Both the position numbers and the translations under genes were made by a program. Source: an uncultured bacterium (GTDB taxonomy: Bacteria > Bacteroidota > Bacteroidia > Bacteroidales > CAIXTV01). From it: DNA of 43,399 bases. Under the pieces are notes generated by a model. That model had not been told where the DNA came from, searched no databases, and saw only the letters and a program-made list of their open reading frames with translations. The DNA lies in the NCBI GenBank assembly GCA_903922465.1, contig CAIXTV010000171.1, positions 1 through 43,399 of the forward strand. Reading direction: 5' to 3'. Below are positions 360 through 43,399 of the stretch, one piece after another; positions within the stretch are counted from its first letter, which is position 1; each line of letters begins with the position of its first letter.

Positions 360-1049
360 TTAGGGACAATTATTATTACATGGACACTGAGTTGTCTGAC
401 CAGATGTTACCCAAGTTGAAAAGATGGACTCGTCACTACTACCAACACATCCATCTCCATCAATGTCTGCAGAATATGAATAACCACAATAATTTTGAGT
501 ATTATCCCAAATATTCCAATCTGATGAGTCAACCCATCCACTTTGATCTATATCTCCGCTATATAATGCATACACAGGATTATTATTAATGTCAACACCT
601 ACTTGAATTTGTGCATCTGAATAATAAGCCATATTATTAGGCTGTGAAAAATCACACATTGGATTATTACCTATAAAAACAGAATTCGAAGAAAAAACCC
701 ATAAATGATTTCTGTTTTTCACGAAAATAAAATAAGAAGTTTGATAATCTGGGACAGTAACATTACATGTCCCATCTGTAAAAAGTTTTTCGTAAGAAGA
801 AAAAATTACATTACAAGAATTATCTCTTAATTCAACTGTAATAATATCTGCATATTCAGGTCCCCAATTATTAATGGGATTCCCATTTACATAATCCTGA
901 GCAGGATTCATTAAACCTGTAGGATTCGATGAACTACTTGAATTTGGAATATATAAGCCTTCCAAATAAAGTTTTAAAGATAATGTCGTAACTTGTGCTT
1001 TAATAGCAATACTAGACATTATAATAACAATTAATAGTAATTTTTTCAT
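360..1049 (-). CDS. Small secreted protein with paired dockerin-like calcium loops
   Basis: The 229-residue protein starts with a clear signal peptide (about residues 1-19, ending IKAQ). Residues 20-164 form a beta-rich module. Two EF-hand-like loops follow: GDIDQSGWVDSSDWN (165-179) and ADIDGDGCVGSSDES (194-208). Both have the D-x-D-x-(S/D)-G pattern of type I dockerin repeats, though they are irregular (V/G at the hinge). The end is Cys-rich (CPCNNNCP). The whole mature protein is a paralogue of the last 195 residues of the giant protein at 32924-42826. Shared words are LYLEGLY versus LILEGLF, VKNRNHLWV versus VTNRNHLET, and DAQIQV versus DAQVQV. There is no T9SS sorting domain. Role unknown; a surface Ca-binding or docking module is an inference. 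Confidence 0.85.
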   Translation of the reverse strand: MKKLLLIVIIMSSIAIKAQVTTLSLKLYLEGLYIPNSSSSSNPTGLMNPAQDYVNGNPINNWGPEYADIITVELRDNSCNVIFSSYEKLFTDGTCNVTVPDYQTSYFIFVKNRNHLWVFSSNSVFIGNNPMCDFSQPNNMAYYSDAQIQVGVDINNNPVYALYSGDIDQSGWVDSSDWNIWDNTQNYCGYSYSADIDGDGCVGSSDESIFSTWVTSGQTTQCPCNNNCP

Positions 1050-1194: not shown

Positions 1195-4100
1195 ATGAAA
1201 AAATGTATTTTACTTATTCTCTTACTTTACTTTTATGGTGTTTTAAAAGCAAACAGTTCTAATAAAGATTATATAAAAGAAATACGTGCAAAAGAATGGA
1301 TAAAAAATAAACCCCTTGAGTTTATAGAAAATAAAGGACAGTTTACCAATACTGATGGTAAACCTGCCCATGATGTACTGTTTAAAACATCTTTTGGTAA
1401 TTGTGATATTTATATAACTACAAAAGGATTAAGCTATGTATTTGTAAAGTTTGAAAAAGATAGTCTATTGGCTAAAAATGATGAGTTTAAATTTATCAAC
1501 AAGAATTCAAAAACCTCATATTACAGATTGGATATGAATCTGGAAGGAGCTAACATTAATAAAACAAACATCATAAAAGAAGAAGAAAGCAGAGAAGGGG
1601 ATAAAAATTATTATTATGCTCATTGTTCTAATGGAATTTATAATGTGAAAGGATATGGGAAAGTAACTATAAAAAATATTTATCCGGGGATTGATTGGGT
1701 GCTATACACCAATTTAAAATCAAAAGGACATCCTTTGAAATATGATTTCGTGATACATTCCGGCTCAGATTACAAAGCCATAAAAATAAAATTTTTGAAT
1801 GCTCAAATTATAAGTTTATTGGATGATAAAACTAAACTTAAGATTGAAACTATTGCAGGGAATATTGAAGAAGGGAAGCTTTTTTCATATCTTAATAATG
1901 AAAATGAACAACAAGAAATTAAAAGCAAATACCTATTAAACAATGATAGTTTGATAGCATTTGAAATAGAGGATTATGATAAAACCAAAACATTGATAAT
2001 TGACCCCTTGGTTTGGGCTACTTATTATGGGGGGAGTAGTATTGATTATTTTAATTCAATCTGCACTGATAGTCTTAATAATATTTATTTAACTGGCTGC
2101 ACTTATTCAGTAAATTTTCCTACTCAACAATTTTCAGGAGCTTATTGGCAAAACATTTTAGAAGGCAGTTATGATATTTTCATACTGAAATTCAATAGTC
2201 AAGGAGTGAGACAGTGGGCGACTTATTATGGAGGAACAGATATTGATGTAGGGAAATCAATCTGTATTGATAGTCAGGAGAATATTTATGTTACAGGATA
2301 TTCCGGTTCTTCAAATATACCCACTCAACAAATGACAGGAGCCTATTGGCAAGCAGTATGTGCCGGAAATGTAGATTTATTTATTTTAAAGTTTAATAAT
2401 CAAGGAATAAGGCAATGGGCTACCTTTTACGGTGGAAGTGCAGAAGAAGGAGGTAGCTTTATTTGTATAGACCATCTTGATAATATTTTTATAACCGGTT
2501 ATACTAAATCGATTGATTTTCCAACACTACAATTAACTGGAGCTTATTGGCAACCGAATAATGCAGGGAGTGTAAATGGGGTTGATATTTATATATTAAA
2601 ATTCAATAATCAAGGAGTGAGACAATGGGCTACCTATTATGGAGGAAATGCAAGGGATATTAATAATAATTCTTCTGAATGGGGCAATTTGATATGTGTA
2701 GATAGCCAGAATAATATTTATATAGCGGGGACAACTTCTTCAACGAATTTCCCCCTTCAACAATTAAATGGTGCCTATTGGCAAGGATCTTTCGCTGGTG
2801 GGAGTGACGCTTTTATATTAAAATTCAATAATCAAGGAGTGAGACAATGGGCTACATATTATGGAGGAGGTGGCATTGAAGATGCATGTGCTATTTGCGT
2901 TGATCATCAGGATAATATTTGTATAACCGGAAGCACTGTTTCTAATAATTTCCCTACTCAACAGCTTCCGGGTGCGTATTGGCAATCTTCTCTTAGTGAT
3001 AGTTTTTATTATGATATTTTTATAATAAAATTCAACGATCAAGGGGCAAGACAATGGGCAACATATTATGGAGGAACTATTGATGATCATGGGTATTCAA
3101 TTTTTGCTGACAACATAGATAATATCTATGTCATTGGTAATACGACATCCACAGATTTTCCAATTCAGCAATTAGGAGGAGAATACTTTCAAGCAGTTTG
3201 TTCAAATATAGGGGGCAATACTTCTGATGCTTTTATTTTGGAATTCAATAAACATGGAGTGAGACAATATGCTACATATTATGGATCAAATGGCTCAGAT
3301 ATGGGAAAAGGTATTGCAGTTGATAGCCAAAATTCAATTTATTTTATCGGGACATTGGGAGACAGTACTGCATTTACAGTAGATCCTGGAAATGGCGCTT
3401 ATTATGAAAATAGTTGGCATAGTGGCGATATTTGGTGGGATGGTTTTATTCTAAAAATAAAATGTAATATTACAAATCCAACCTCTATTAAGAGTGATAG
3501 AAACTATTTGTGTTCTTTGGATAATGGCACTATTACTTTAATGGCAATTGGTGGCTCAGGAGATTCTTTAAAATGGTATACTGGAGGTTGTGGGCAAACC
3601 TATATCGGAAGTGGAATAAACATAACAATACCCACACCTACACAGACTACTACTTATTATGCGTGTTGGGAAAGTGAATGTGGTACTTCTGCTTGTGTAA
3701 ACATTGTTATTTATGTTTATGATGTTTTTTATACTTACTTAAATCCTATTATTTGTCAGAATGAGTCATTTTCAGTTGGGATACATAATTATTCATTAAT
3801 AGGGATATATAATGATACTCTTCAAACTTTGGCTGGTTGTGATAGTATTATTACTACCAATTTATTTGTCAATCCCATTCCCCCACCTCCAATCATAAGC
3901 CAAACATACAATTTACTCAACTCAAATGCAAGCGCAGGCAATCAATGGTATAATCAAGATGGGATTATGGTTGGAGATACCAATCAGAACCTTAATTTAA
4001 TAGTAAATGGGGATTATTATGTGATAGTTATTCTGAACGGATGTGTTTCGGATACTTCTAATGTTTTGCATATTACCAATGTGGGTGTTAGTGAGAATGA

Positions 4101-4353: not shown

Positions 4354-4358
4354 GGCGC

Positions 4359-4480
4359 CTAGAGTGTCTAGAGTGTCTAGAGTGTCTAGAGTGCCTAGAG
4401 TGCCTAGAGTGAACTAGAGTGCCTAAAGTACTTGGAGTGTCTAGAGTATTTAGAGTGAATTAGAGTGATTGAAGTATTTA
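4359..4480 (+). repeat. 9-bp tandem repeat array (CTAGAGTGT)
   Basis: About 13 units run in tandem. The first three are identical (CTAGAGTGT). Later ones drift (CTAGAGTGC, CTAAAGTAC, TTGGAGTGT, TTAGAGTGA), and two have one base inserted. Because the period is 9 the frames stay partly open, but no credible protein results. Confidence 0.85.
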
Positions 4481-9492: not shown

Positions 9493-9822
9493 TCAGTCTT
9501 TAATCATACTCAGTAACATCTTAAACTGCTCCAAAGCGTTTACTGCGTGGGGTATATTAGCCGGCATAATGATGCTTTCGCCTGCCATTAATTCATAAGG
9601 GACTTTGTTGATGATGATTTCGGCTTTTCCTTCCAACACCTGTATCATGGCATCGAAAGGGGCAGTGTGTTCGCTCAGCGATTGTCCTTTATCGAAAGAA
9701 AACAAGGAGATGTTTCCGGTTTTCTTTTCCAACACTCTTTTACTTACTATTCCATTATCGGAATAACTAACTTCCTTAGCAAAGTTAAATACCTTTGCTG
9801 TTTCAAATGATTTATTTTCCAT
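9493..9822 (-). CDS. Small cupin-fold protein in the NO-stress block
   Basis: The 109-residue single-domain cupin has the second cupin motif G-x(5)-P-x-x-x-P-H-A around GESIIMPANIPHAV (about 86-99). The first motif is partial, around SLSEHTAPFDAMIQVLEG (48-65). Such proteins bind a metal or small ligand; the substrate here is unknown. The start chosen is the ATG at 9822 (MENKSFETAKVF), although the frame is open to 9876. The extra 18 codons would be translated from the 9-bp CTAGAG repeat and have no cupin character. It is the last gene of a probable hcp - YgbA-like - cupin unit, 46 nt after the YgbA-like stop. A role in nitrosative stress is inferred from position only. Confidence 0.85.
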   Translation of the reverse strand: MENKSFETAKVFNFAKEVSYSDNGIVSKRVLEKKTGNISLFSFDKGQSLSEHTAPFDAMIQVLEGKAEIIINKVPYELMAGESIIMPANIPHAVNALEQFKMLLSMIKD

Positions 9823-9848
9823 GTTTTTAAATTTTATAATTCTAATAA

Positions 9849-9880
9849 CTCTATGCACTCTAAGTACTCTAGGCACTTTT
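9849..9880 (-). repeat. 9-bp CTAGAGTGC-type repeat, minus strand
   Basis: Read on the minus strand this is AAAAGTGCCTAGAG-TACTTAGAGTGCATAGAGT. The TAG stop of the YgbA-like gene is itself the TAG of the first unit. The repeat thus lies at the 3' end of that gene in sense orientation, as at the other sites. Confidence 0.7.
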
Positions 9881-10177
9881 CTTACTTAATAAATGCCTTA
9901 TAGAAAGTATGGGGTGTCTGAAAATCATCCTTGGTCCCGAAAACCTCATAATCTCTTTTATTTTTGTTCTGTTTTCTTTGTTGTAGCAATGCGTTGTGCA
10001 AACTTTACAGGCAGGTTTGTTGTCGCCATATCTGCATTTATCTGTCCTCAGCAAAGCATATTCAATAAGCTTAACGCATTCGTCGCAGGTTTTATTTTGC
10101 CTGTGATTGGATTTGCAATAAATTTCTATCATTGCTTTGACGGTGGCTTTTTCGGTGACTATACGTTTGCTTTGCAT
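9869..10177 (-). CDS. YgbA-type nitrous oxide-stimulated promoter family protein
   Basis: The 102-residue Cys-rich protein matches the YgbA_NO family by pattern: a K-R-I-x-x-E-K-x-T-V-x-A-M-I start, CxxC (C31, C34), CRYGDNKPACKVCTTHC (C48, C57, C60, C64), then MRFSGPRMIFRHPIL and SIRHLL. An additional Cys is at 21. Family members are induced by nitric or nitrous oxide under NsrR-type control and the protein's activity is not settled; the cysteines suggest metal or Fe-S binding. It lies 58 nt downstream of hcp with a hairpin between. The last codons and the stop are contributed by the 9-bp repeat, so the C-terminus (KKSA) may have been altered by repeat insertion. Confidence 0.88.
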   Translation of the reverse strand: MQSKRIVTEKATVKAMIEIYCKSNHRQNKTCDECVKLIEYALLRTDKCRYGDNKPACKVCTTHCYNKENRTKIKEIMRFSGPRMIFRHPILSIRHLLSKKSA

Positions 10178-10191
10178 AAATGAGTAAGTGT

Positions 10192-10224
10192 AAACCTAAC
10201 AGGTTTTGGAAACCTGTCAGGTTT
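10192..10224. repeat. Hairpin between hcp and the YgbA-like gene
   Basis: AAACCTAACAGGT (10192-10204) pairs with ACCTGTCAGGTTT (10212-10224) apart from one A-C mismatch, and two more T-A pairs close toward the loop. No U-run follows on the minus strand. It looks like an interspersed palindromic element that could set differential expression of the two genes. Confidence 0.6.
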
Positions 10225-10235
10225 GAAATCAATTA

Positions 10236-11894
10236 TTAGTTTAAAAACATTTTCATGTCTTCGTCAACAGTTCCAATGCCGGCAATGCCAAAGGTATCTA
10301 CCAAAACCTTAGCAACATTGGGCGATAAGAATGCAGGAAGTGAAGGACCTAAATGGATGTTTTTAACGCCTAATGATAAGAGTGCCAGTAGGACGATAAC
10401 GGCTTTTTGTTCGTACCAGGCAATGTTGTAGGCTATGGGTAAATCGTTGATGTCGTTCAATTCGAAAACTTCTTTTAGTTTCAGTGCAATCACGGCTAAT
10501 GAATATGAATCGTTGCATTGTCCAGCATCCAACACACGTGGAATGCCACCAATATCGCCTAAAGGCAATTTGTTATAACGATATTTTGCACAACCTGCGG
10601 TGAGGATGATGGTATCTTTTGGGAGTTTTTCGGCAAATTCGGTATAGTAATTCCTGTCTTTCATTCTGCCATCGCAACCCGCCATGACAAAGAATTTTTT
10701 GATAGCACCTGATTTAACGGCTTCAACCACTTTGTCAGCCAAAGCAAATACTTGTGCATGTGCAAAACCTCCAACGATTTCGCCTGTTTCGATTTCGGTG
10801 GGAGCTTTGCAACTTTTTGCCATTTCAATTATAGGGCTAAAGTCTTTTGCTTCCCCATCTTTAGCATTTTCAATGTGTTTGAAGTCAGGAAAACCGGCAA
10901 CACCTGTTGTGAAAACCCTGTTGGTGTAAGTTGCTTTTGAAGAAGGTGGGACAATACAATTGGTGGTGAAAAGAACCGGACCATTGAAAGTTTCGAAATC
11001 TTCTTTCTGTTGCCACCATGCACCACCATAGTTTCCTATGAAATGAGCATATTTTTTAAAGGCAGGATAATAATGGGCAGGTAACATTTCGCTATGGGTG
11101 TATACATCCACGCCTGTGCCTTCAGTTTGTTTCAGCAATTCTTCCATGTCTTTCAAGTCGTGACCGCTGATAAGGATGCCGGGTTTGTTGCTTACGCCAA
11201 TATTTACTTTAGTGATTTCGGGATTGCCATAAGCCGTAGTGTTCGCTTCGTCCAACAAAGCCATAACGCTTACACCAAATTTCCCGGTTTCGAGAACCAA
11301 TGCGATGTTTTCGTCAACACTGAGGGCGTCGTTTGTAAGAGCTGCCATTGCACGGGTGGCAAAAGCATAGATTTCCTGATTCTCTTTTCCGAGAACCGCT
11401 GCATGATCGGCATAGGCTGCCATGCCTTTTAAGCCATAGAGAATTAATGCTCGCAAAGAACGGATGTCTTCGGTAGGGGCATCAATGGTTCCGTTGATTT
11501 CAGCTGCTTTTAAAATGATTTCGGTAATCGATTTTGCTTCCCAAACGGCACATTCTTTTGTGATATCAGAAAAACCTCCTTTTAAATCGAGGATACTTTT
11601 CTTCATTTCCGAACGAAGAACGAATATTTCTTTTATCCTATCAATAAAAAAACTTTCAGTAAAATTTACATTGGTAATGGTTGAAAACAATCCTTCCATC
11701 AGCAAACGGTCAAATTTACTGTTTCTTTGACCTAAGGAATTTAAATGTTCAGCAAATAGCGCATTTCCTTTTAATAAAAATACATACAAATCCTGTAGAT
11801 GGATAACCTCGCTGGTAACACCACATACACCGATTTTTGATACGCATCCTGTTCCTTTGGATGCTTCCTGACATTGATAACAAAACATACTCAT
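10236..11894 (-). CDS. hcp: Hybrid cluster protein (Hcp; annotated hydroxylamine reductase)
   Basis: The 552-residue cytoplasmic Fe-S protein is the length of class I Hcp. The N-terminal cysteines are C5, C8, C17 and C23 (C-x2-C-x8-C-x5-C), the spacing seen in Desulfovibrio-type Hcp, which carries a [4Fe-4S] proximal cluster. Hybrid-cluster ligands are all present at the expected spacing: H245, E269, C313, C407, C435, C460, E495 and K497. Hcp reduces hydroxylamine in vitro and is thought to act as an NO reductase or S-nitrosylase in cells. The start could also be the ATG two codons later (MFCYQC), which matches the usual family N-terminus. It is separated from norZ by a strong terminator, so it must have its own promoter in the short AT-rich gap. 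No good TAnnTTTG box is seen there. Confidence 0.97.
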
Positions 11895-11990
11895 TTTTTT
11901 AGTTTAATTTAGTTAGTAATTAGTTGTTTGATTTATATTAGATGTTTAAAATTGATTTTTCACAATGATGAATTTTGATTTGTTTAATTT

Positions 11991-12023
11991 AAAAAGCCTT
12001 AGAGATGCTATTCTCTAAGGCTT
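11991..12023 (-). terminator. Rho-independent terminator of the norZ operon
   Basis: A perfect stem AAGCCTTAGAG (11994-12004) / CTCTAAGGCTT (12013-12023) gains one further A-T pair toward the loop. On the minus strand it is followed by TTTTT. It lies just after the norZ stop and insulates hcp. Confidence 0.9.
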
Positions 12024-12035
12024 AATTAGTAATAT

Positions 12036-14279
12036 TTATTTTTTAAGTGACCAGCCTGTCTTTAATCCGATTACAAAGTATACCAACCCAACACTTCCAA
12101 GTGCGAAGATAGTATCCCCAAACACTCTCAACCAACGCAGGGTTTGCATAGTTGGGCTTTGCATAAATTCCATCGAACGTGCATACCAAATGCCATGATC
12201 AACAGATGCAATGGTCTGCAGAATTCCAACAGGTAATAAGCTAAAGATTAACATCAGAGTCATACCAATCTGGAAACTCCAAAACGAAAATTTCAAGACT
12301 TTATCGTTCCATTCTCTTGTAACCGTCATACCGCGTAGGGAAAATAACATCAGTCCAATTCCTAACATACCATAAACACCAAATAATGCGGCATGTCCAT
12401 GAAGAGGAGTGGTGTTTAGACCTTGCATATAATATAAAGCAATAGGGGGGTTAATAAGGAATCCGAAAACGCCTGCACCCACTAAGTTCCAGAAGGCAAC
12501 TGCAATAAAGCAGTAAATTGCCCATTTGTATTTCTTTATCCACTCAGTTGTTTTTGTTAGCTGGTAATTGTGCCAGGCTTCAAATCCCATTAAAACCAAT
12601 GGGACAACCTCTAAAGCGCTAAACGAAGCTCCTAATGCAATTATCGACATGGGCGCCCCTGAAAAATATAAATGATGGAAGGTGCCAATAATACCACCTA
12701 ATAAATATATAATGGTTGCAAACAATGAACCAACTGTGGCACGTTTGATATTCAATAAACCTAGTTTTACCAATACGAAAGCTATAACAGTGGTGGCAAA
12801 TACTTCAAAGAAACCTTCTACCCATAAATGTACAACCCACCATCTCCAATATTCAGCAACTGATAAATGTGCCTGACGACCGTACATTAAACCGGCTCCG
12901 TAAAAAGCAGCAATAGCTACAGAGGATATTGTAAATAGAATTAGTAATTGACGGCTGTCTGATTTTACTTTTAAAGCAGGTAATAATGCCCTAATCATTA
13001 AGAATAACCAAATGAGTAAGCCTCCAAATAAAAGGATCTGCCAGAATCTGCCCAAGTCAACATACTCGTACCCCTGATGTCCGAAATAGAAATTCTGAAT
13101 TAAACCTAATTTTTGCATTACACCTAACCATTCACCAGCCATTGATCCTAAAACGACAATTAGTAGAGCGCCAAATAGAATGTTTACACCCAGCTTTTGA
13201 TATTTGGGTTCTACGCCTGAAACAGCTGGAGCAATGAATAAACCTGTGGCTAACCAAGCGGTGGCAATCCAGAAAATAGCCAACTGTACGTGCCATGTTC
13301 TCGAAATACTATAAGGGATAATTGAATCTAATTTTAAGCCATAAAAACCATTTCCTTCAACACCATAATGAGCCGTAATTATCCCAGCAATGACTTGCAA
13401 AAGAATTAAACCAGATACTATCCAGAAATACTTGAGGGTTGCTTTCATAGAAGGGGTTGCCTTCAGGTTAATCAAAGGATCTTTTTCGGGATAAGGCTCA
13501 ACATCTGTTGATAAATCCTTACTTCTTGCATAGTAAAATCCAAGCAAACCTATCCCAAGTAAAAGCATGATAATGCTAAACATTGTCCAAAAAAGGTGCT
13601 TCCCTGTTGCATGATTACCAACTAAATCATCCCCTGGCCAATTGCTGGTGTAGGTGATGTCTTTCCCCGGTCTCTCAGTAACACATGCCCAAGCTGTCCA
13701 AAAGAAGAAAGCATTCATTTTTCGCATGCTCACATCATCTTTAATAGTATTTTCTGGGATAGCATAAGCAAGTCTAGTTTTTTCAAGGTCTTTACTATTA
13801 GTAAACAGACCTTTGTAATATTCCATGTTTGCTTTAATTGCAATTGCACGGAAATCGGAAACTTTTAATGTTTTTGTTGATTCATCATACGAATTGCTAC
13901 GTAAGTCTTTTTGGAGAAGAGATTTTAAAAAAGCTTGTCTTGCAGGACTTACTTTGTCATAAGTAGTCGAGTCGTTTTTAAGTGCAAGTTCATTTAAAAT
14001 AAAGACTGCTTCACGATGAAGCCAATCTGCAGACCAATCGGGAGCTACATATGAACCATGTCCCCAAACGGTTCCCATTTCCTGTCCACCAATAGATTGC
14101 CAAACACTTTGACCATCCATGATTTCCTCTTGAGTGAAAATTTGTTCACCACTTTCTGTTATAACTTTTTCAGGTATTGGAGGTTTTTGCAAATATATTT
14201 CATACCCAAAATAACCTAACACCGAAAAGCTTATTACCATAACAGCAATAAACCCAATCCATAGTTTTCTTGTATTCAT
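12036..14279 (-). CDS. norZ: Quinol-dependent nitric oxide reductase (qNOR)
   Basis: The 747-residue inner-membrane protein is a fused, single-subunit NO reductase of the haem-copper superfamily. It reduces 2 NO to N2O using quinol. An N-terminal membrane anchor (about 6-30) and a roughly 190-residue periplasmic domain (with GQSVWQSIGGQEMGTVWGHG, 56-75) precede a 12-13 helix NorB-like core. Ligands readable by motif are low-spin haem H330 and H627, haem b3 H629, and FeB H484, H535 and H536. E488 is in HLWVEGFFEVF, where the second Glu is E492. HGHAALFGVYG (627-637) is typical. It starts 27 nt after the ferredoxin-type gene in the Rrf2-regulated operon and ends at a strong terminator. norB is often used as an alternative symbol. 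Confidence 0.96.
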   Translation of the reverse strand: MNTRKLWIGFIAVMVISFSVLGYFGYEIYLQKPPIPEKVITESGEQIFTQEEIMDGQSVWQSIGGQEMGTVWGHGSYVAPDWSADWLHREAVFILNELALKNDSTTYDKVSPARQAFLKSLLQKDLRSNSYDESTKTLKVSDFRAIAIKANMEYYKGLFTNSKDLEKTRLAYAIPENTIKDDVSMRKMNAFFFWTAWACVTERPGKDITYTSNWPGDDLVGNHATGKHLFWTMFSIIMLLLGIGLLGFYYARSKDLSTDVEPYPEKDPLINLKATPSMKATLKYFWIVSGLILLQVIAGIITAHYGVEGNGFYGLKLDSIIPYSISRTWHVQLAIFWIATAWLATGLFIAPAVSGVEPKYQKLGVNILFGALLIVVLGSMAGEWLGVMQKLGLIQNFYFGHQGYEYVDLGRFWQILLFGGLLIWLFLMIRALLPALKVKSDSRQLLILFTISSVAIAAFYGAGLMYGRQAHLSVAEYWRWWVVHLWVEGFFEVFATTVIAFVLVKLGLLNIKRATVGSLFATIIYLLGGIIGTFHHLYFSGAPMSIIALGASFSALEVVPLVLMGFEAWHNYQLTKTTEWIKKYKWAIYCFIAVAFWNLVGAGVFGFLINPPIALYYMQGLNTTPLHGHAALFGVYGMLGIGLMLFSLRGMTVTREWNDKVLKFSFWSFQIGMTLMLIFSLLPVGILQTIASVDHGIWYARSMEFMQSPTMQTLRWLRVFGDTIFALGSVGLVYFVIGLKTGWSLKK

Positions 14280-14306
14280 TTTTTCTTGTTTTAATTTTAT
14301 TATTTA

Positions 14307-15167
14307 TTATACCCAATCTTCTTGAATGGTTTCGCCTTGAAGACTAATTACTGTTAACTTTAAAGGAATCTTTCTGCTTGCTTTCTGAGTGGCTTGTTTT
14401 GCAATTTGCAATAAACCACTACAGCAAGGGACTTCCATAATAACTACTTGAAGTGTGTTTATTTTAGCCTGATCAATCATAGCAGATAATTTTTCTACGT
14501 ATATTTCCATATTTGAGTCGAGCTTAGGACAAGCAATAGCAATGCTTTTGTCTTTCATAAACTTATTATGAAAATCTCCAACTGCAAAAGCAGCGCAATC
14601 AGCAGCAAGCAATACATCTGCATTTTGGAAATAAGATGCCATCGGATTCAATAAATGTAATTGAACTGGCCATTGTTGAAGTTGCGATGGAGCTGAAAAG
14701 TTTCCATCAGTTGTGGTTTCTTTTTTTGTTTCTCTGAAGTCTTGTGTTCCCGAACCTGGGCAACCGCAAAAACCTTCACTTGAATGTTCGTGTTTTTCTG
14801 TTGAGTTCATGTTGTTTAAATTAATATTGATATTGTGTTTATTAAGGTAATCTAATGCTTGTTCTACGTATTCGTCTTGATTATGATCTTTTAAATGGTT
14901 TAGATGTGCTTTAATGGTTGATTCGCCTTTCTCAACCATACGTTCAATAGTTTTAATTTCATCATAAGCTTCGGCTTCTCTTTCTTCCAGTTCAATTGCG
15001 CCAACAGGACAATCGCCAATACAGGCGCCCAAGCCATCGCAATACAATTCGCTAATCATTCTTGCTTTGCCATCTATTAATTGAAGCGCCCCTTCGTGAC
15101 AACCAATGATACAATCGCCACAACCTGTGCATTTATCTTCATCAATTTTAATTATTGTTCTTTTCAT
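14307..15167 (-). CDS. Ferredoxin-type 4Fe-4S protein with Cys-containing C-terminal domain
   Basis: The 286-residue cytoplasmic protein begins with a two-cluster ferredoxin domain: C13, C16, C19, C23 (CTGCGDCIIGC), then C43, C49, C53 (CDGLGACIGDCP). A helical linker of about 60-115 follows, then a GFCGCPGSG motif (131-139; C134, C136). The C-terminal domain (about 165-286) has C191 (AADCAAFAVGD), C213 and a CC pair (C248-C249, EVPCCSG). Proteins with this layout often sit beside Hcp or NO reductase genes; here it lies between the regulator and norZ. Its ATG overlaps the TGA of the regulator (ATGA), so translation is probably coupled. A role in electron delivery or Fe-S/NO chemistry is inferred; no reaction is known to me. 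Confidence 0.85.
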   Translation of the reverse strand: MKRTIIKIDEDKCTGCGDCIIGCHEGALQLIDGKARMISELYCDGLGACIGDCPVGAIELEEREAEAYDEIKTIERMVEKGESTIKAHLNHLKDHNQDEYVEQALDYLNKHNININLNNMNSTEKHEHSSEGFCGCPGSGTQDFRETKKETTTDGNFSAPSQLQQWPVQLHLLNPMASYFQNADVLLAADCAAFAVGDFHNKFMKDKSIAIACPKLDSNMEIYVEKLSAMIDQAKINTLQVVIMEVPCCSGLLQIAKQATQKASRKIPLKLTVISLQGETIQEDWV

Positions 15168-15571
15168 TTTTTAATTATTAAATCGTTTATAGTATTATTA
15201 TTAAGATAGTCACTGAATTCTAAAGCAAATTTTTTCTGAAATCCACCGAAAACACAATTAATACGACTACATCCTTTTTGATGTAAATCGCAATTGTAGG
15301 TAGAAATTGTTCCATCCGTCACCTGGTAAATATCCATTAATTTAATGTCTTCTGCTTTTTTTGCAAGCTCAAATCCTCCTGAAGGGCCTCTGAATGATTT
15401 AAGAAAATTATGTTTTACCAACAACTGCATGATTTTAGCAATGTGGTTTTTTGAGGCATGTGTTATTTCAGATATCTCTAGTATTGTAATTAACTTTTCA
15501 CGACTAGCTATTAAAACCAAGCTGTGAAGAGCGATTGAAAAGGGTTCCGATATATTTAATAATTTACTCAT
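15164..15571 (-). CDS. Rrf2-family Fe-S regulator, NsrR-like
   Basis: The 135-residue winged-helix regulator runs from FSIALHSLVLIAS (11-23) through the recognition helix SKNHIAKIMQLLVKHNFL (about 40-57) and the wing RGPSGGFELA (61-70). Three cysteines, C94, C101 and C106, sit in YNCDLHQKGCSRINCVFGGF, the position where NsrR/IscR hold an Fe-S cluster. The spacing C-x6-C-x4-C differs a little from classical NsrR. It probably loses repression when NO attacks the cluster. The start is the ATG at 15571 (MSKLLNISEP), not an in-frame ATG at 15616: the longer version would begin inside the promoter -7 box at 15604-15611 and adds non-family residues. It is first in the operon with the ferredoxin-type protein and norZ. 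Confidence 0.93.
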   Translation of the reverse strand: MSKLLNISEPFSIALHSLVLIASREKLITILEISEITHASKNHIAKIMQLLVKHNFLKSFRGPSGGFELAKKAEDIKLMDIYQVTDGTISTYNCDLHQKGCSRINCVFGGFQKKFALEFSDYLNNNTINDLIIKK

Positions 15572-15603
15572 TGCTAAAAAGGTTAAACAGGTATTCCAAT
15601 GCG

Positions 15604-15611
15604 CAAATGTA
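15604..15611 (-). promoter_or_regulatory. TACATTTG -7 box of the regulator - norZ operon
   Basis: TACATTTG on the minus strand lies about 33 nt before the regulator's ATG (15571). The divergent gene has TACCTTTG at a similar place. The -33 region is not clear, as may be expected of a regulated promoter. Confidence 0.45.
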
Positions 15612-15662
15612 TACATTAGTTTATTTCTTCCTAATAATATTTTTCGTTATTGATTTAATTGT

Positions 15663-22876: not shown

Positions 22877-23149
22877 CTTCTTGGCATTCGTATTTCGCCT
22901 GTTGGTGTCCGTATTATGCCTGTTGGCATTCGTATTATGCCTCTTGGCATTCGTATTTCGCCTCTTGGCATTCGTATTTCGCCTGTTGGTGTCCGTATTA
23001 TGCCTGTTGGTATTCGTATTATGCCTGTTGGTATTCGTATTATGCCTGTTGGTGTTCGTATTATGCCTGTTGGTATTCGTATTATGCCTGTTGGTGTTCG
23101 TGTTTTGCCTGTTGGTGTCCGTATTATGCCTGTTGGTGTTCGTATTATT
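22877..23149. repeat. 21-bp tandem array, 13 units
   Basis: The consensus unit is CCTGTTGGTGTTCGTATTATG, 21 bp, repeated 13 times without interruption (the first unit lacks the CCT head). Variants are GTT/CTT, GTG/GCATT/GTATT and ATTATG/ATTTCG. Because 21 is a multiple of three, two plus-strand frames stay open across the array (PVGVRIM repeats in one). I do not regard either as a protein-coding gene: neither has a signal, a domain or promoter support. Confidence 0.95.
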
Positions 23150-23591: not shown

Positions 23592-25313
23592 ATGAACAAC
23601 TTTATAGTCTCCGCCCGTAAATACCGCCCACAAACCTTCGACACCGTAGTGGGTCAGGGGTCCATCACTTCTACTCTTAAAAATGCCATTAAGAACGGCA
23701 CTTTGGCGCAATCCTTTCTCTTTTGCGGACCACGTGGTGTGGGTAAAACGACCTGTGCGCGTATTCTTGCCAAGACCATCAATTGTCAGAACATCACTCC
23801 TAATATAGAGGCTTGCGACGAATGCCCTTCCTGTAAATCTTTCAACGAAAATGCTTCTTTCAACATACACGAACTCGATGCAGCTTCAAACAATTCGGTG
23901 GATGATATTCGCAACTTGGTCGATCAGGTGCGCATACCCCCACAAGTTGGCGATTTTAAGATATATATCATCGATGAAGTCCACATGCTCTCCACTCAGG
24001 CTTTCAATGCCTTTTTGAAAACCCTAGAAGAGCCACCTGCTTATGCTAAATTTATATTAGCCACCACCGAAAAACACAAAATCATTCCGACCATCTTATC
24101 GAGATGTCAGATTTATGACTTCAAGAGAATTTCTAACGACGACATAGTGAAACATCTCGAGTTTGTTGCCCAAAGCGAACATGTGAATTTCGAGGCCGAA
24201 GCCCTGCATGTTATATCACAGAAGTCGGATGGTGCCTTGCGCGATGCCCTATCGATGTTCGATCAGATAGTGAGCTTCTCGGGAGGCGATATCAGCTACA
24301 AAGCTGTAATTGAAAACTTGAATGTGTTGGATTATGAATTCTATTTCAAATCGGTTAATTTTATTCTGAAAAAGAATGTCCCCGAATTGTTGTTAATCTT
24401 CAACGAGATTATTGAACGAGGCTTCGATGGGCAGCATTTCATCAATGGTTTAGCTGCACATTTCCGCAATTTGTTGGTTTGCCGCAACGTTTCGACGGCC
24501 AAACTTTTCGAGTCGAGCGATTCCACTCGCAACCGCTATATCGACCAAACCAACGAATGTTCCGACGCCTTTCTGATGAAAGCATTAGAAATCACCAATC
24601 AATGCGATCTTAACTATAAGAACAGCAACAATAAACGACTGATGGTCGAACTGAGTTTATTGCAACTCCTGTCTTTGCTTCAAGCGCCAACGACCACTGT
24701 ATCTAACCCGCCTATTATTGAAAAAGTTGTTGAAACCCCTGTTGCTAAACCTATTCCTGTGGCACCCAAGCAAGAAACTAAGGAAATTGTTGCCGTTGAA
24801 AAGACAGAAACAGTGAGCAGCGATCCCTTGCATGGCAAGATGCCTTCTTTGAAAGCCCGTTCGTTTTCCATTAAAATGCCTTCTTCGCAAAACTCACCTC
24901 AATCAGCAGCAATGTTGGCTGAAGACGCAATAAACTACCCTGCCAATGCTGATCCGTATAGCGAAGAATCCTTTGCTAAAGTTTGGGATGCCTATGTTCA
25001 GGAATGTATTAATGAACCCACTCTTTATTCATGTTTGATTAGTCGTAAGCCTATACTTCTGGATAATAACGAAGTTGAACTCATCTTAGATAACAACATT
25101 CAGTTGGATTTTATTAATGAAAAACGCATGCAACTTGTCGATTATCTTCGTCAATCGTTGAAGAACGATGGAGTTAATTTGAAGTTTACGGTAGAAGAAA
25201 AAACAATAGAAACCAAAGCCTACACTTCACAAGATAAGTTTAACAAATTAGCACAAATCAATCCCAGTCTCATTCAGTTTAAGAATGATCTCAACCTTGA
25301 TTTGTCGATTTAA
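23592..25313 (+). CDS. dnaX: DNA polymerase III subunit gamma/tau
   Basis: The 573-residue clamp-loader ATPase opens with VSARKYRPQTFDTVVGQ, the family start. Walker A is GPRGVGKTT (46-54). The zinc site is C65, C75, C78, C81 (ACDECPSCKSF). Walker B with DExH is IIDEVHML (126-133), followed by the TTEKHKIIPTILSRC sensor/arginine-finger segment (about 158-172). Domain III runs to about 365, then a Pro/Lys-rich linker (about 370-450) and a C-terminal tau-like domain. It loads the sliding clamp at the replication fork. I did not look in detail for a frameshift that would make a separate gamma. The gene stands alone, after the long repeat-bearing spacer. Confidence 0.97.
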   Translation: MNNFIVSARKYRPQTFDTVVGQGSITSTLKNAIKNGTLAQSFLFCGPRGVGKTTCARILAKTINCQNITPNIEACDECPSCKSFNENASFNIHELDAASNNSVDDIRNLVDQVRIPPQVGDFKIYIIDEVHMLSTQAFNAFLKTLEEPPAYAKFILATTEKHKIIPTILSRCQIYDFKRISNDDIVKHLEFVAQSEHVNFEAEALHVISQKSDGALRDALSMFDQIVSFSGGDISYKAVIENLNVLDYEFYFKSVNFILKKNVPELLLIFNEIIERGFDGQHFINGLAAHFRNLLVCRNVSTAKLFESSDSTRNRYIDQTNECSDAFLMKALEITNQCDLNYKNSNNKRLMVELSLLQLLSLLQAPTTTVSNPPIIEKVVETPVAKPIPVAPKQETKEIVAVEKTETVSSDPLHGKMPSLKARSFSIKMPSSQNSPQSAAMLAEDAINYPANADPYSEESFAKVWDAYVQECINEPTLYSCLISRKPILLDNNEVELILDNNIQLDFINEKRMQLVDYLRQSLKNDGVNLKFTVEEKTIETKAYTSQDKFNKLAQINPSLIQFKNDLNLDLSI

Positions 25314-28664: not shown

Positions 28665-31058
28665 ATGAAGAGAACAAACTTACACATGAAAAGCTTGATG
28701 TTGTTTGCACTGATTATGTTGACCGTATTACAGTCAAAAGCACAAGAAAACTATTATAATCTTTATATCGCCAACGATGTTCAAACGGCGGCCAACGTCT
28801 TGGAGTTCGATGTGTATCTGAAAGACATGGATCCCTCTCAGATTTTCGAGCTCTCCTCAATGCAGTTAGGGATATATGTAGATTCGGCTATTAGGAATGG
28901 TGGGGTTTATGTCCCTACTATGGTGCCCGGAACATCTGAATTTAATGCTATTCAGACGCCAATAAGTGGAAATTTCTCTTATTTGGCTTCATTGGGGGTG
29001 AAAGTTACTCCAAGGACGACCTCACCTGGCAATGGAACAATTATCTCGAAAATCAATAATGGTAGTCGCATGTGCCGTATAAGATTGACCAATACGGTGC
29101 CCTTTGCAACGGGCTCGCATGCCAATTTGGCTTTTAGTTTTATCAACCCTCCTACATCTTGGCCTACCAAAGTAAATCTATATATTAATGGAAGTAGTGT
29201 ATTCGCTCCTGGTAGTTCCTCTAATTGTACAAACATTTCATCCAACACCGTTTTAAATCCAATTCCAGCGGCACCCACTGGTAGTGCATCTCAGAGCTTT
29301 TGTGTTAACATCAGTCCCACCATTGCTCAATTAACAGCAACAGGAAGCAATATCAAATGGTATGATGCCGCTGTTAACGGAAACCTACTTGCACCAACTC
29401 AGGCATTGGTGAATGGAGCTCAGTATTATGCCACACAATCGAATTTCGTGAACGAAAGTTCGGCCAGGCTGCAGGTGACGGTAACCATCAACAACACTGG
29501 CACTTGGATTGGCGCCACTAGCAATAATTGGAACGAACCTTCGAACTGGTGTGGTGGAATGCCCGTTCCCACAACCAATATTGTGGTTCCTGCCGGCGAT
29601 GTTCACATTACATCTACCCTCGAAAACCCTGCTGTTTGCAACAATTTGACCATAGAGCCGGGTGCTGTTCTCACCGTTGAAGGTGGAAAAGCCATCACCA
29701 TAACCGGTACTCTTACCAATAATTCAGGAAATGCAGGCATCGTCATCGAATCGAACAGCACCGAAACAGGCTCCCTCATCGAAAGCACCCCCGGAATTAT
29801 TGCAAGCGTTCAACGCTATATGGTTCAGGGCAATTTGGTTCGCTATCATTATATTTCTTCCCCTGTAGTTTCGGCTCCAGCCTCGGTGTTTTTGCATTAT
29901 TATATGTATCGTTTCGATGAACCAACTGCTGCATGGATTAATATTGCGGCCACCGACAACCTCGAAGTGATGAAAGGCTATTCGGTTTACAGGCCCTATG
30001 CATCGGCCATGACCAAATTATTTCAAGGCGAATTGAATTGTGGGCCCATGGGCACTCAAGGAAATGTGAGCCGCACCGACATCAACAAAGGTTGGAATTT
30101 GTTGGGCAATCCTTATGCCTCGGCCATCAATTTGGATGCGTCAGAGGGTTGGACTAAGACCAATGTTTCGGCCGCAGTTTATTTGTGGAATCAGGCCTCT
30201 AAGTCTTACGTTTCATACGTCCCCGGTTACCCACAGGGCACACCCGGTTTGGGCACGCCCACTGGCACCACTGGAATTATCCCTGCCATGCAAGGCTTTA
30301 TGGTACGTGCCGCAGCTGTGGGCAGCGGAACGCTTCTGATGAACGATGCCGTGAGGGTTCACAGCGGACAGCCCTATTGGAAAAGCAGTCCTGTTGATGT
30401 GCTTAGAATCAGCGCAACTTCAGGCGAATTTAAAGATGAAGCTGTAGTTCGCTTCGATGAACGCTCGTCTGCCCAATTCGACGATCACTTCGATGCTTTT
30501 AAAATATTATCAGAAGAAGCTATGGCTCAGCTATATACTCTTGTTTCCGACGAAAACCTTTCCATCAACACCCTGCCTAAAATCGAACAGGATTTGACGG
30601 TTCCTCTCAATATGAAAATCAACACAGGAGGCGATTATAAAATCACTGCCGATGGCACTAGCAATTTCGATTCCGACATCTTTATTTATCTTGAAGATGT
30701 GTTTGCTCATTCCATCATCGATCTAAAACAAAGTCCTGAATATAGCTTTAGCAGCACTCCCAACGACGAATCGGCGCGTTTTAAAATACATTTCAGCCGC
30801 AGCCCGCTCACAAGCAATGTCGACAATGCAACCTCTACAAGAATTTTCAGCTACGACAACACCTTGCATATCAACACTCCACTCCAGGCCAATGGCAGTG
30901 TGGAACTCTATAATGCCATTGGGCAACAGATTTTCAGCTCGAAATTACAGCCTTCAACATCAAACAGCTTTGCTCTGAATGCTATAGTGGCAGGATGTTA
31001 TATCGCCAAAGTGATTAACGAGGGCGTGGTGACAAGCACAAAAGTGCTGATTAAATAA
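28665..31058 (+). CDS. T9SS-secreted multi-module surface protein
   Basis: The 797-residue protein, counted from the ATG at 28665, has a signal peptide (about 1-27, LQSKAQ). An upstream in-frame start at 28581 is rejected because it overlaps the promoter and would bury the signal peptide. Residues about 29-188 form a beta-rich module (LEFDVYLKDMD, FELSSMQLGIY, NGTIISK, RMCRIRLTNTVPFA) that recurs twice in the giant protein at 32924-42826. An Ig_7-like domain follows (about 193-255, IKWYDAAVNGNLL..GAQYYATQ). A TWIGATSNNWNEPSNW repeat/beta-helix part (about 259-390) and a long region with GWNLLGNPYASAINL come next. The type A T9SS sorting domain is at about 725-797. Function unknown; adhesin-like. 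Confidence 0.88.
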   Translation: MKRTNLHMKSLMLFALIMLTVLQSKAQENYYNLYIANDVQTAANVLEFDVYLKDMDPSQIFELSSMQLGIYVDSAIRNGGVYVPTMVPGTSEFNAIQTPISGNFSYLASLGVKVTPRTTSPGNGTIISKINNGSRMCRIRLTNTVPFATGSHANLAFSFINPPTSWPTKVNLYINGSSVFAPGSSSNCTNISSNTVLNPIPAAPTGSASQSFCVNISPTIAQLTATGSNIKWYDAAVNGNLLAPTQALVNGAQYYATQSNFVNESSARLQVTVTINNTGTWIGATSNNWNEPSNWCGGMPVPTTNIVVPAGDVHITSTLENPAVCNNLTIEPGAVLTVEGGKAITITGTLTNNSGNAGIVIESNSTETGSLIESTPGIIASVQRYMVQGNLVRYHYISSPVVSAPASVFLHYYMYRFDEPTAAWINIAATDNLEVMKGYSVYRPYASAMTKLFQGELNCGPMGTQGNVSRTDINKGWNLLGNPYASAINLDASEGWTKTNVSAAVYLWNQASKSYVSYVPGYPQGTPGLGTPTGTTGIIPAMQGFMVRAAAVGSGTLLMNDAVRVHSGQPYWKSSPVDVLRISATSGEFKDEAVVRFDERSSAQFDDHFDAFKILSEEAMAQLYTLVSDENLSINTLPKIEQDLTVPLNMKINTGGDYKITADGTSNFDSDIFIYLEDVFAHSIIDLKQSPEYSFSSTPNDESARFKIHFSRSPLTSNVDNATSTRIFSYDNTLHINTPLQANGSVELYNAIGQQIFSSKLQPSTSNSFALNAIVAGCYIAKVINEGVVTSTKVLIK

Positions 31059-31112: not shown

Positions 31113-31325
31113 GCCATACCTGGCAGAGGCAACTTAGGTTTAGGGGCTATGATAAGCCTGCTTATCAGTAAGCTTTTATTCTCAACTTAAACACTTCTTC
31201 AGATGAGGAGGGGAAGAGTGCTTCTTCTCAAAATGATTTTGTATGTTATTGAAAATGATGTATATGTAGTTATGATAAAGGCTTTATTTATAACAAAAAC
31301 CATTAGGGAAACCACATTATGCATA
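31113..31325. other. Spacer with two mutually exclusive small hairpins
   Basis: No gene. GATAAGC-ct-GCTTATC (31151-31166) overlaps GCTTA-tcag-TAAGC (31160-31173); only one can form at a time. The GATAAGG/CTTATC words are like those in the array that follows. Confidence 0.45.
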
Positions 31326-31577
31326 AACCTTATAAGGTAAATAGATAACCTTATAAGGAAAGTGTATAACCTGATAAGGTATATATAAACCCTGATAAGG
31401 AAAGTGTATAACCTTATAAGGTATGCATAAACCCTGATAAGGAAAGTGTATAACCTTATAAGGTATGTATAAACCCTGATAAGGAAAGTGTATAACCTGA
31501 TAAGGTATGCATAAAACCTGATAAGGAAAATGTAAAACCTGGTGAGGATGATGCAAAACCTGCTAATATTAATAAAA
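31326..31577. repeat. 21-bp tandem array, 12 units, with CCTTATAAGG palindromes
   Basis: Twelve consecutive 21-bp units start AACCT or ACCCT. The core alternates CCTTATAAGG (a perfect palindrome) with CCTGATAAGG, and the tails alternate AAAGTGTAT with TATGNATAA, giving a 42-bp higher-order repeat. The last units decay. The array lies between convergent genes. Its reverse strand gives a 79-codon open frame of HFPYQGLxIPYKV repeats that I reject as a gene. Confidence 0.95.
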
Positions 31578-32923: not shown

Positions 32924-35900
32924 TTAAGGATGTTGAGTCGCCATACCATAGGTTAAACGAGGTTCGAACAAGTTAAAGTCGTCAGAATCTACCCAACCAT
33001 TGCCGTCAAAGTCTGAGATTAAAAATCCTGTCAACCCGAAAGTCAGTCCGGGTTCGAATAAATTGAAATCTTCAGCATCTATCCAACCATTGGCATCTAA
33101 ATCGCCCAAATAGAAGCCGAACATTCCCGGAGCAACCTGCACCTGAGCATCCATGCCATAAGCCTGCATCACGTCAGAAGTGAAGTAATAGTTCACTGTT
33201 GGAGTATTGAAAGGCACAGCCAATGCCGACCAAGTTTCGAGGTGATTTCTATTGGTAACTCTTATATAGTAGTTGCCACTATGGATAGACGAGATATAAA
33301 AACTTGCCAAACCACTGGTATCCAAATCAACCCCACTCACGCTAACTCCAATAGAACCATAGGGCGAATTTTCCTCGAAAAGATCAACATTAACCTTGTC
33401 GGCTATCCCATAACCATATTGAGGCACATTGGCATTTCCTTCCATGGCTTCCGTCATTCGATGGGTGCTATGATTAAACAAACCTTCTAAAATCAGATGA
33501 AGATTCACCATCTTATATAAGTTGATGGTCACGCTAACGCCCAGCCTGCTTTGGCTTTCGCATCCAGCAATGCTTTGACTGGCGTAATATGTATGTCCAT
33601 CGATGAGGGCTGTGGTAGGTGACAACAAATTGCCTCCACTTGGGGCATCATACCATTTGATGTTGCTTCCTGTGGCCACTAAATCGGCAACAGTGGCGGC
33701 ATTATTAAACGACATGCTAGTGCTTCCGGTAGGAGCAGGGACGATGTTTAAACTCACAACGGCCGATCCATTCATGTTCACAGTGCCGCTTACACAAGTG
33801 TAGGTGCCTGGCAGAGTGAGGTTCCACGATAAAGGTGCACCCGTTCCGGCAACAGCCGAACCGTAATTCACACCGTCTTTCTTCAATTGATAGCTATAAG
33901 TCAACTGCGAACCGCTCAAACCAACAACTATTGGTGAACCTCCTGTGCAATAAGCTCCTCCACCAGTCATATTATACGCTATGGCAACATTGAGGGTGGG
34001 GTTGTTCAGGCCAGTCGTAATGAAAGTGCCATTGGTATTTATATCCTTACTAACAGCCGTAATGTAAGCATTCACAATGGTTTGCCACGAAGGCCCTACG
34101 GTGGTGAATGAAAAACTCATATTGGGTTTCAGTTGTGCAAAAGCTAAGGTGTTGGTGAGTCTGATGCGCATCACTCTGGTGCCAGTTGTGGTAGAGATGA
34201 TGGTTCCGCTGCCTGCACTGGTGGTCTTAGCCGTAACCTTGATGGTTTTGTTTCCTGTGGTCGGACCAACTAAATACATATTGGTATTGCTTTGCTGCTG
34301 TGGCGCATTGATTTCGGAAGAACCCGCAACTATCGTTGCCGTTGCCGTTCCTCCATTGAGGATGGCGCTGTTGAAATAGATGCCCATTTGTATACTCGAA
34401 AGTTCAAACTGAGGGGGAGTCACAAAATTGCCTGTATGTTTAAGATACACATCAAACTCGTAAATTCTATCGGATATCTGCGCATCGTTCTTGAGTTCAA
34501 GATTAAAGAAAGGCCAAATACCTGTTTTGAATGGAAGTATGGCGCCATACACAGTATCAGTGAAGTTGATGGCATAAGCCCTCATCCAATAATTAGAATT
34601 AGAATTTAAGGACGCCACCACCGAACTGTAGAGGCCCAAACCTGAACCGGAATTCACAGTAGTGCTTAATGGGTCTCCAATAATAGGATTGGCATGTGCT
34701 GCATACACAAAACCGCGCACTACCGTTGGATTAAGGCAGGAAGAGTTGAGTTCACCATTAAATGTTGCTCCGTTTAGGCTGATGACGGTAATAGGTTTTG
34801 TAACTACCGTAACAGGCACAGGATAAATGCTCACCGTAACCCCAAACCTGCTGTTGCTCTCGCAACCACTTATGGTTTGACTGGCATAATAAGTGCTGCC
34901 ATTTACTAATGTTTGAGTCGATAAAAGAAGATTCCCTGCAATAGCAGCATCATACCATTTAACTGCCGTCCCCGAAATAACTAAGTCGGCAAGGCTTGCG
35001 GCATAACAAAACGATTGAGCTGCACTTCCGCTAGGTGCGCCTGTATTGACGAGGTTGACCTGAGCACTGCCGTTCATGCTGGCAATATTGTTTACGCAAG
35101 TGTAAATGCCCGATTCGGTAATATTCCAGCTCAATGCATTTCCGGTTCCAGGCACAACAGCACCATAGTTCAAACCGTCTTTTTTCAATTGATAGTCAAA
35201 GCCTTGCTGTGAGCCGTCAAGTCCTACTGTGACCGGAACGTTGCCATTGCAATTGGTGCCGCCTCCAGTCATATTATATATAGTGACTACATTGAGGGTT
35301 GGATTGTTCAACCCACTGTTTATGAAGGTGCCGTTAACTGTGATGTCTTTGCTAATAGTTGCAATATAGGCATTAACCATAGTTTGCCACGAAGGCCCTG
35401 TTGCCGTAAACGAGTAACTCATATTGGGTTTCAATTGAGCAAAGGCTAAGGTGTTGGTAAGCCTGATGCGCATTACCCTGGTGCCTGTGGTGGTTGAAAT
35501 GATGGTTCCACTACCTGCACTGGTGGTCTTGGCTGTTACTTTAATAGTTTTCATGCCTGTGGTCGGACCAACAATATACATATTGGTATTGTTTTGTTGC
35601 TGATTTGCATTGATATCAGAATATCCAGGAACAACAGTAGCTGTTGGTGTTCCTCCGTTCAGGATGGCGCCGTTGAAATAAATACCCATTTGTATGCTCG
35701 ACAATTCAAATTGAACGGGGGTCATATAATTCCCTGTATGCTTAATGTAAACGTCAAATTCATACGCTCTGTCCGAAACCTGAACATCGTTTTTGATTTC
35801 GAGATTAAAGAAGGGCCAGATGCCGGTTTTAAAAGGAAGAATGGCTCCGTAAATAGTGTCGGTAACATTTATAGCAAAGGCCCTAACCCAATAATCAGCA

Positions 35901-43216: not shown

Positions 43217-43399
43217 CAGAAGTTTGCTATATATGTCCTTAGCCTAGGGGGTATATATACAGAAGTTTGCTATATATGTCCTTAGCCTAGGGGGTATATA
43301 TACAGAAGTTTGCTATATATGTCCTTAGCCTAGGGGGTATATATACAGAAGTTTGCTATATATGTCCTTAGCCTAGGGGATATATATACAGAAGTTTGC
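43217..43399. repeat. 43-bp tandem array, truncated by the window edge
   Basis: Units start at 43217, 43260, 43303, 43346 and 43389 (the last is partial). The first three are identical as far as I can read; the fourth has one G to A change. Each carries TATATATG, then CCTTAGCCTAGGGG, then TATATATA. No spacers separate the units, so this is not a CRISPR. The array continues beyond the window. Confidence 0.95.

Follow-up and report, generated by a model that had tools for sequence, protein, structure and literature searches.

Assembly through cohesins and dockerins is known chiefly from Gram-positive cellulosomes, and non-cellulosomal cohesins and dockerins are already known. In CipA of Clostridium thermocellum (3kcp, 4fl4, 2b59) and ScaA of Acetivibrio cellulolyticus (4wi0), the protein ends in a type II X-dockerin dyad, a C-terminal beta-sandwich followed by a two-repeat dockerin, and the module described here is built alike. 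Cohesin recognition is determined by positions 10 and 11 of the dockerin repeats (PMC8063739). For the Cloacimonadota (Ca. Stygibacter), a cellulosome-like system has been proposed in which dockerin-bearing enzymes are combined with a cohesin scaffoldin that carries a C-terminal sorting domain (CTD) of the type IX secretion system, T9SS (PMC8542988). Such sorting domains are divided into types A, B and C (PMC10202324).

We analysed a stretch of 43,399 nt (the window), contig CAIXTV010000171.1 of assembly GCA_903922465.1, from an uncultured Bacteroidales bacterium (CAIXTV01). It encodes a small protein, P0002, and a giant, P0001, that share a C-terminal module. We propose, with a probability of roughly 0.6, that P0002 is a free copy of an X-dockerin-type module through which about 40 proteins dock on T9SS-displayed cohesins, in a non-cellulosomal surface network. 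The two proteins and their parts are as follows.

360-1049, minus strand: P0002, free-standing X-dockerin-like protein of 229 aa (open reading frame, translation, homology to the giant and to the genome's other copies)
993-1049, minus strand: Sec-type signal peptide of P0002, MKKLLLIVIIMSSIAIKAQ, residues 1-19, cleavage site inferred (sequence)
561-992, minus strand: beta-rich, X-module-like part of P0002, residues 20-163 (alignment, predicted strands)
519-554, minus strand: calcium-type loop 1 of P0002, DIDQSGWVDSSD, residues 166-177, 12-residue EF-type
432-467, minus strand: calcium-type loop 2 of P0002, DIDGDGCVGSSD, residues 195-206, 12-residue EF-type
363-386, minus strand: Cys-rich C-terminal tail of P0002, CPCNNNCP (alignment)
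32924-42826, minus strand: P0001, secreted protein of 3300 aa with PKD_6, Ig_7 and Reelin/adhesin-type domains, two NLEIKND domains and the C-terminal module
35291-35806, minus strand: NLEIKND domain of P0001, copy 1
33989-34504, minus strand: NLEIKND domain of P0001, copy 2, with a suspected cohesin-like fold
33521-33730, minus strand: Ig_7 domain of P0001 immediately preceding the module, an arrangement common to many other module proteins
32927-33514, minus strand: X-dockerin-like module of P0001, residues 3105-3300 (homology, alignment, predicted fold)
33068-33103, minus strand: loop 1 of P0001, DLDANGWIDAED
32978-33013, minus strand: loop 2 of P0001, DFDGNGWVDSDD

P0002 consists of a signal peptide followed immediately by a single module, and nothing else is encoded. 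Its BLASTP alignment with residues 3107-3300 of the giant (32% identity, 49% positives, E=1e-16) puts their homology far from chance. Loops 166-177 and 195-206 correspond to giant residues 3242-3253 and 3272-3283. The first-pass annotation, which took P0002 for a stand-alone paralogue of the giant's C-terminal end, is thus borne out. Among the full-length copies of its type, P0002 has also diverged furthest: it scores 203.8 bits, and 36 others reach about 270-342. These scores are partly circular for the window's copies because these went into the profile (the tblastn values below are not circular). Lower scores are confined to an outlier subtype at C109, one fragment at a contig edge and two remote relatives. 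This divergence, a long branch in the module tree, the replacement of Asp by Gly at position 9 of loop 2, and the odd Cys-rich tail, which is not in the other copies of a 34-copy alignment, would suit a remnant, in the course of decay, of a protein that was once larger and ended in the module. We consider such decay very improbable, as the frame is intact, the protein's own signal peptide directly precedes the module, and D1, D3 and D12 are kept in both loops with SS/SS as the 10/11 pair. P0002 is the only copy without any cargo; two others, of 268 and 273 aa, bear one small extra domain.

Elsewhere in the window, the minus-strand region 9493-15616 resembles a nitric-oxide stress cluster, as read from its translations (an Hcp-like hybrid-cluster protein, a qNOR-like oxidase, a ferredoxin-type protein, an Rrf2-like regulator and a cupin). 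Intergenic tandem-repeat arrays lie at 22881-23148, 31325-31566, 43217-43399 and 4357-4467, with units of 21, 42, 43 and 9/46 bases. The 21-base array is open to translation throughout, as an ORF of RIMPVG-type repeats, and is closely followed by a dnaX-like gene (23592-25313); the 43-base array is at the contig end.

In the host genome, which comprises 5.0 Mb in 312 contigs, tblastn with P0002 locates the module in 39 places (best non-self match 1.2e-26), and a profile search finds 41 copies. The earlier suggestion of two proteins with the same terminal module therefore holds for the sharing and fails on the number, which is about 40. The module almost always forms the C-terminal end of its protein, with 0-4 residues beyond the match; the exceptions are the contig-edge fragment, the distant C109 copy, which has a tail of 11-13 residues, and the two remote relatives on C233. 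By a simple rule, 30 of the 32 module ORFs that are complete at the 5' end begin with a signal-peptide-like sequence. A census of the module and its fusions, which the first-pass annotation had asked for, finds cargo that is mainly Ig_7 and PKD_6, with fn3, LRR, Laminin_G, Sortilin-like and plastocyanin-like domains as further cargo. Two peptidase-like proteins (M6 and C39/C70-like) occur among the module proteins scanned, and no glycoside hydrolase or CBM family was seen among them (25 of 38 families being among the matches listed). At C233:5730-9569 (L129), two adjoining proteins combine cohesins with a remote module relative whose loops carry insertions of the KYSGGGSDR type, a subtype found in other genomes too.

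An alignment of 34 copies resolves the module into a beta-rich part of about 140 aa and two EF-type loops, DLDQGGWVDxxD and DFNGGGWVDxxD, each followed by a FNLFEP-type stretch. RNH is invariant in the beta part, and W, F and Q residues are near-invariant. The beta part has no convincing Pfam or NCBIfam family in scans of 34 members and merits a family of its own in these collections. D1 and D12 are present in both loops of all 37 modules compared, and position 3 is D, N or E; position 5 is mostly Gly, Ser or Asn and hence non-acidic, which leaves the calcium affinity of these presumptive calcium sites uncertain. The loop spacing, the D1/D3/D12 ligands and the internal symmetry recall type I dockerins (PF00404, Dockerin_1), whose model has hits in 19 of the 34 members at E<=1, down to 5.6e-8, and a family profile run against the PDB has dockerin and EF-hand chains as best matches, via the loop region. 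In contrast to type I dockerins, position 5 is usually not Asp and most members fall below the Dockerin_1 cut-off of 22.9 bits, including P0002 (11.0) and the C148 protein (16.8); a 397-aa protein of C58 reaches 31.8. The earlier label of dockerin-like is upheld by these matches and by the giant's predicted fold (below), but a type I dockerin would account for only part of the module, which has the beta domain in addition.

Calcium-type loops of this kind can be structural only, and FG-GAP and EF-hand models also match module members weakly. The module could then lack a binding partner and shield long Ig-repeat proteins as a C-terminal cap stabilised by calcium, and the related modules in genomes without cohesins would suit such a cap. 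We give this reading little credence. The free copy has no cargo to cap, the cohesin-rich gene pair described below ends in the module, and the residues at positions 10 and 11 vary between proteins while staying symmetric within each.

This symmetry is pronounced. Positions 10 and 11 are identical between the two repeats in 25 of 37 modules, where 5.9 are expected and the maximum in 10,000 shuffles is 14; since the shuffles ignore relatedness and repeat duplication, the symmetry counts as support and not as proof. The comparably variable positions 15 and 22 have little repeat symmetry. In other genomes, 8 of 21 modules have identical pairs against 0.47 expected (pairs read by eye). The module differs here from the CipA and ScaA X-dockerins, as its repeats are symmetric at 10/11 in the manner of type I dockerins. 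The pairs that recur are SD/SD, AD/AD, SE/SE, AI/AI, AV/AV and AL/AL, which suggests that the modules fall into two classes of specificity, one with an acidic and one with a hydrophobic residue at position 11.

Structure prediction of both C-termini and comparison with dockerins, another check named beforehand, succeeded clearly for the giant and weakly for P0002. Modelled by AlphaFold with own-genome paralogues only, P0002 gave a weak to moderate model (pLDDT 70), and its Foldseek matches were unspecific apart from 2b59_B, an X-dockerin of CipA, which ranked 12th and had a low TM. The last 526 residues of the giant were modelled with 62 sequences, other genomes included. In this model, the pLDDT over the module lies between about 91 and 98, for the most part at 96-98, and each of the two loops leads into a helix. 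The four best PDB matches of the model are cohesin-X-dockerin fragments of C. thermocellum CipA (3kcp/4fl4 type, E 3.9e-7 to 2.4e-6); the rmsd of these matches is large because the domain arrangement differs, and the predicted model thus shows parts in common with CipA and not a common overall shape. Against the A. cellulolyticus X-dockerin 4wi0_B, the probability is 1.00, with a TM of 0.61 to the target and an rmsd of 5.5 over 203 columns. In the giant's copy, the predicted fold is that of an X-dockerin, a beta-sandwich packed beside a dockerin. The module is without close sequence relation to the CipA and ScaA dyads, and its beta part measures about 140 aa. Neither a fold unrelated to dockerins nor an absence of further copies, the outcomes named beforehand as speaking against the first-pass annotation, was encountered.

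As possible sockets for the module, the genome has 17 cohesin (PF00963) matches; a profile of 16 of these finds solved cohesins at 2.6e-11. They are possible common partners of the module proteins, and the latter probably assemble outside the cell because the genome encodes both modules and matching cohesins. Some cohesins are on proteins with a T9SS type A CTD (e.g. C106 ORF1 and C64). Others are on multi-cohesin proteins that themselves end in the module, namely C106 ORF2, with three cohesins, and the C148 protein, in which Pfam recognises three and a fourth was made out by eye; this ending of a multi-cohesin protein is a further likeness to CipA. C106 ORF2 and the C148 and C64 proteins are non-catalytic and have three cohesins each, and non-catalytic multi-cohesin proteins are a feature shared with cellulosomes.

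In C106, an 1843-aa protein with a beta-helix, a cohesin and a CTD is directly followed by the 881-aa protein with three cohesins and the module. By analogy, the pair resembles an anchoring scaffoldin and an adaptor scaffoldin. A scan of named genomes gave one relative only; this closest named relative, a Bacteroidales MAG (JANXXZ010000124) with 14 modules and 6 cohesin matches, has the same gene pair (L034:10112-18316 and L167:3530-11720 in the two genomes). Between the genomes, the first protein is 60% identical, the cohesin part of the second 51% and its module 36%. In a tree, the module of the second protein groups with the modules of its own genome in each of the two genomes, as would be expected if modules change in concert with the cohesin set that they share.

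Across the phylum the association is looser. In a sample of 296 genomes (35 with modules, 261 without), cohesins occur in 22/35 module genomes and 76/261 others (odds ratio 4.1, Fisher p 1.2e-4, uncorrected for phylogeny). No cohesin was detectable in 13 of the 35, some of which have several modules. We therefore reject an obligate pairing of module and cohesin across the phylum; the association is real and not strict. Among relatives in other genomes, some loops are altered or carry insertions. For these two reasons, docking on classical cohesins is not to be taken for granted across the superfamily; the support for it is strongest in this genome and in the second Bacteroidales genome.

The position of the module raises a different explanation. 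Type A CTD matches number at least 150 in the genome, which also has SprA. The module could above all be a new T9SS C-terminal signal or anchor that takes the place of the type A CTD, with recognition at the outer membrane and with loops that serve folding or anchoring and not cohesin binding. Like a sorting domain, it is always at the extreme C-terminus, in other genomes too, and Lys is the last residue of 22/39 copies. A small SVGE-type domain is followed by the module in two proteins (C167:40605-41402, C266:5663-6463) and by a type A CTD in two others (C69:4866-5339, C273:11584-12027). SprA is present in 35/35 module genomes and the module in 0/67 SprA-less genomes of the 296 sampled (hypergeometric 6.6e-5), a count that is phylogenetically weak because the SprA-less genomes come from few families. 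Against this, the module has no detectable sequence relation to T9SS sorting domains, has EF-type loops and exceeds a type A CTD more than twofold in length. On 34 module members, no NCBIfam sorting model reached its cut-off (TIGR04183 in one, E=0.083), and we rejected the module as a divergent type A CTD, hhalign giving 0.3%. An exclusive sorting role would also leave the X-dockerin fold, the symmetric specificity positions and the cohesin gene pair unexplained, and we consider it unlikely. The docking and export-signal readings are mutually compatible. Given that module proteins have no recognised T9SS signal, and given the SVGE swap and the co-occurrence with SprA, the module may be or include an export signal. 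This raises a testable question, that of how proteins with a dockerin in place of the CTD cross the outer membrane.

The NLEIKND domain (NLEIKND...YEFDVYL...RIRLTN) has about 172 aa and 18 copies in the genome, and it is frequent in module-ended proteins. A further copy lies in the window at 28758-29195 on the plus strand, and in the second Bacteroidales genome (L083) the domain also immediately precedes the module. Sequence profile searches gave no Pfam or PDB match. We rejected it as a cohesin by sequence (hhalign probability to cohesins 0.1%); a cohesin-like fold is suspected from a hint in a fold search only. One could envision a dual-purpose module, which routes proteins through the T9SS in the CTD's place and is also a cohesin plug, with NLEIKND as a second, divergent cohesin that chains giants head to tail and P0002 limiting chain growth. 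Such a scheme is speculative and quite improbable as a whole.

Returning to the docking reading, we envision the following arrangement. Some 40 secreted proteins of a T9SS-bearing Bacteroidota bacterium, mainly of Ig/PKD-repeat type, end in the module, in which a dockerin with two calcium-type loops and internal twofold symmetry comes after a beta-sandwich. This module probably docks, in a calcium-dependent manner, onto cohesins of T9SS-anchored cell-surface proteins, and probably also onto multi-cohesin adaptor proteins that are themselves module-ended, which would yield a non-cellulosomal surface network. The free P0002 would occupy cohesin sites without cargo and may thus be a cap or competitor.

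The arrangement is close to that of Stygibacter, where cohesins are likewise on a T9SS-type anchored protein and C-terminal dockerins on signal-peptide proteins, both systems being predicted from MAGs. The Stygibacter dockerins, however, are on hydrolases. The present ones, about 40 in number, are accompanied by an X-like beta domain and mostly carried by proteins of Ig/PKD-repeat type. Dockerins on plant-wall-degrading enzymes and a scaffoldin CBM, which mark the cellulosome, were not seen among the module proteins scanned. Unlike the CipA and ScaA dyads, the module occurs in a Gram-negative bacterium, on about 40 surface proteins that are not enzymatic. Our search of the open-access literature turned up no report of some 40 Bacteroidota surface proteins that each terminate in an X-dockerin-like module. 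If the proposal is true, the plug-and-socket logic of cellulosomes also builds non-enzymatic cell surfaces.
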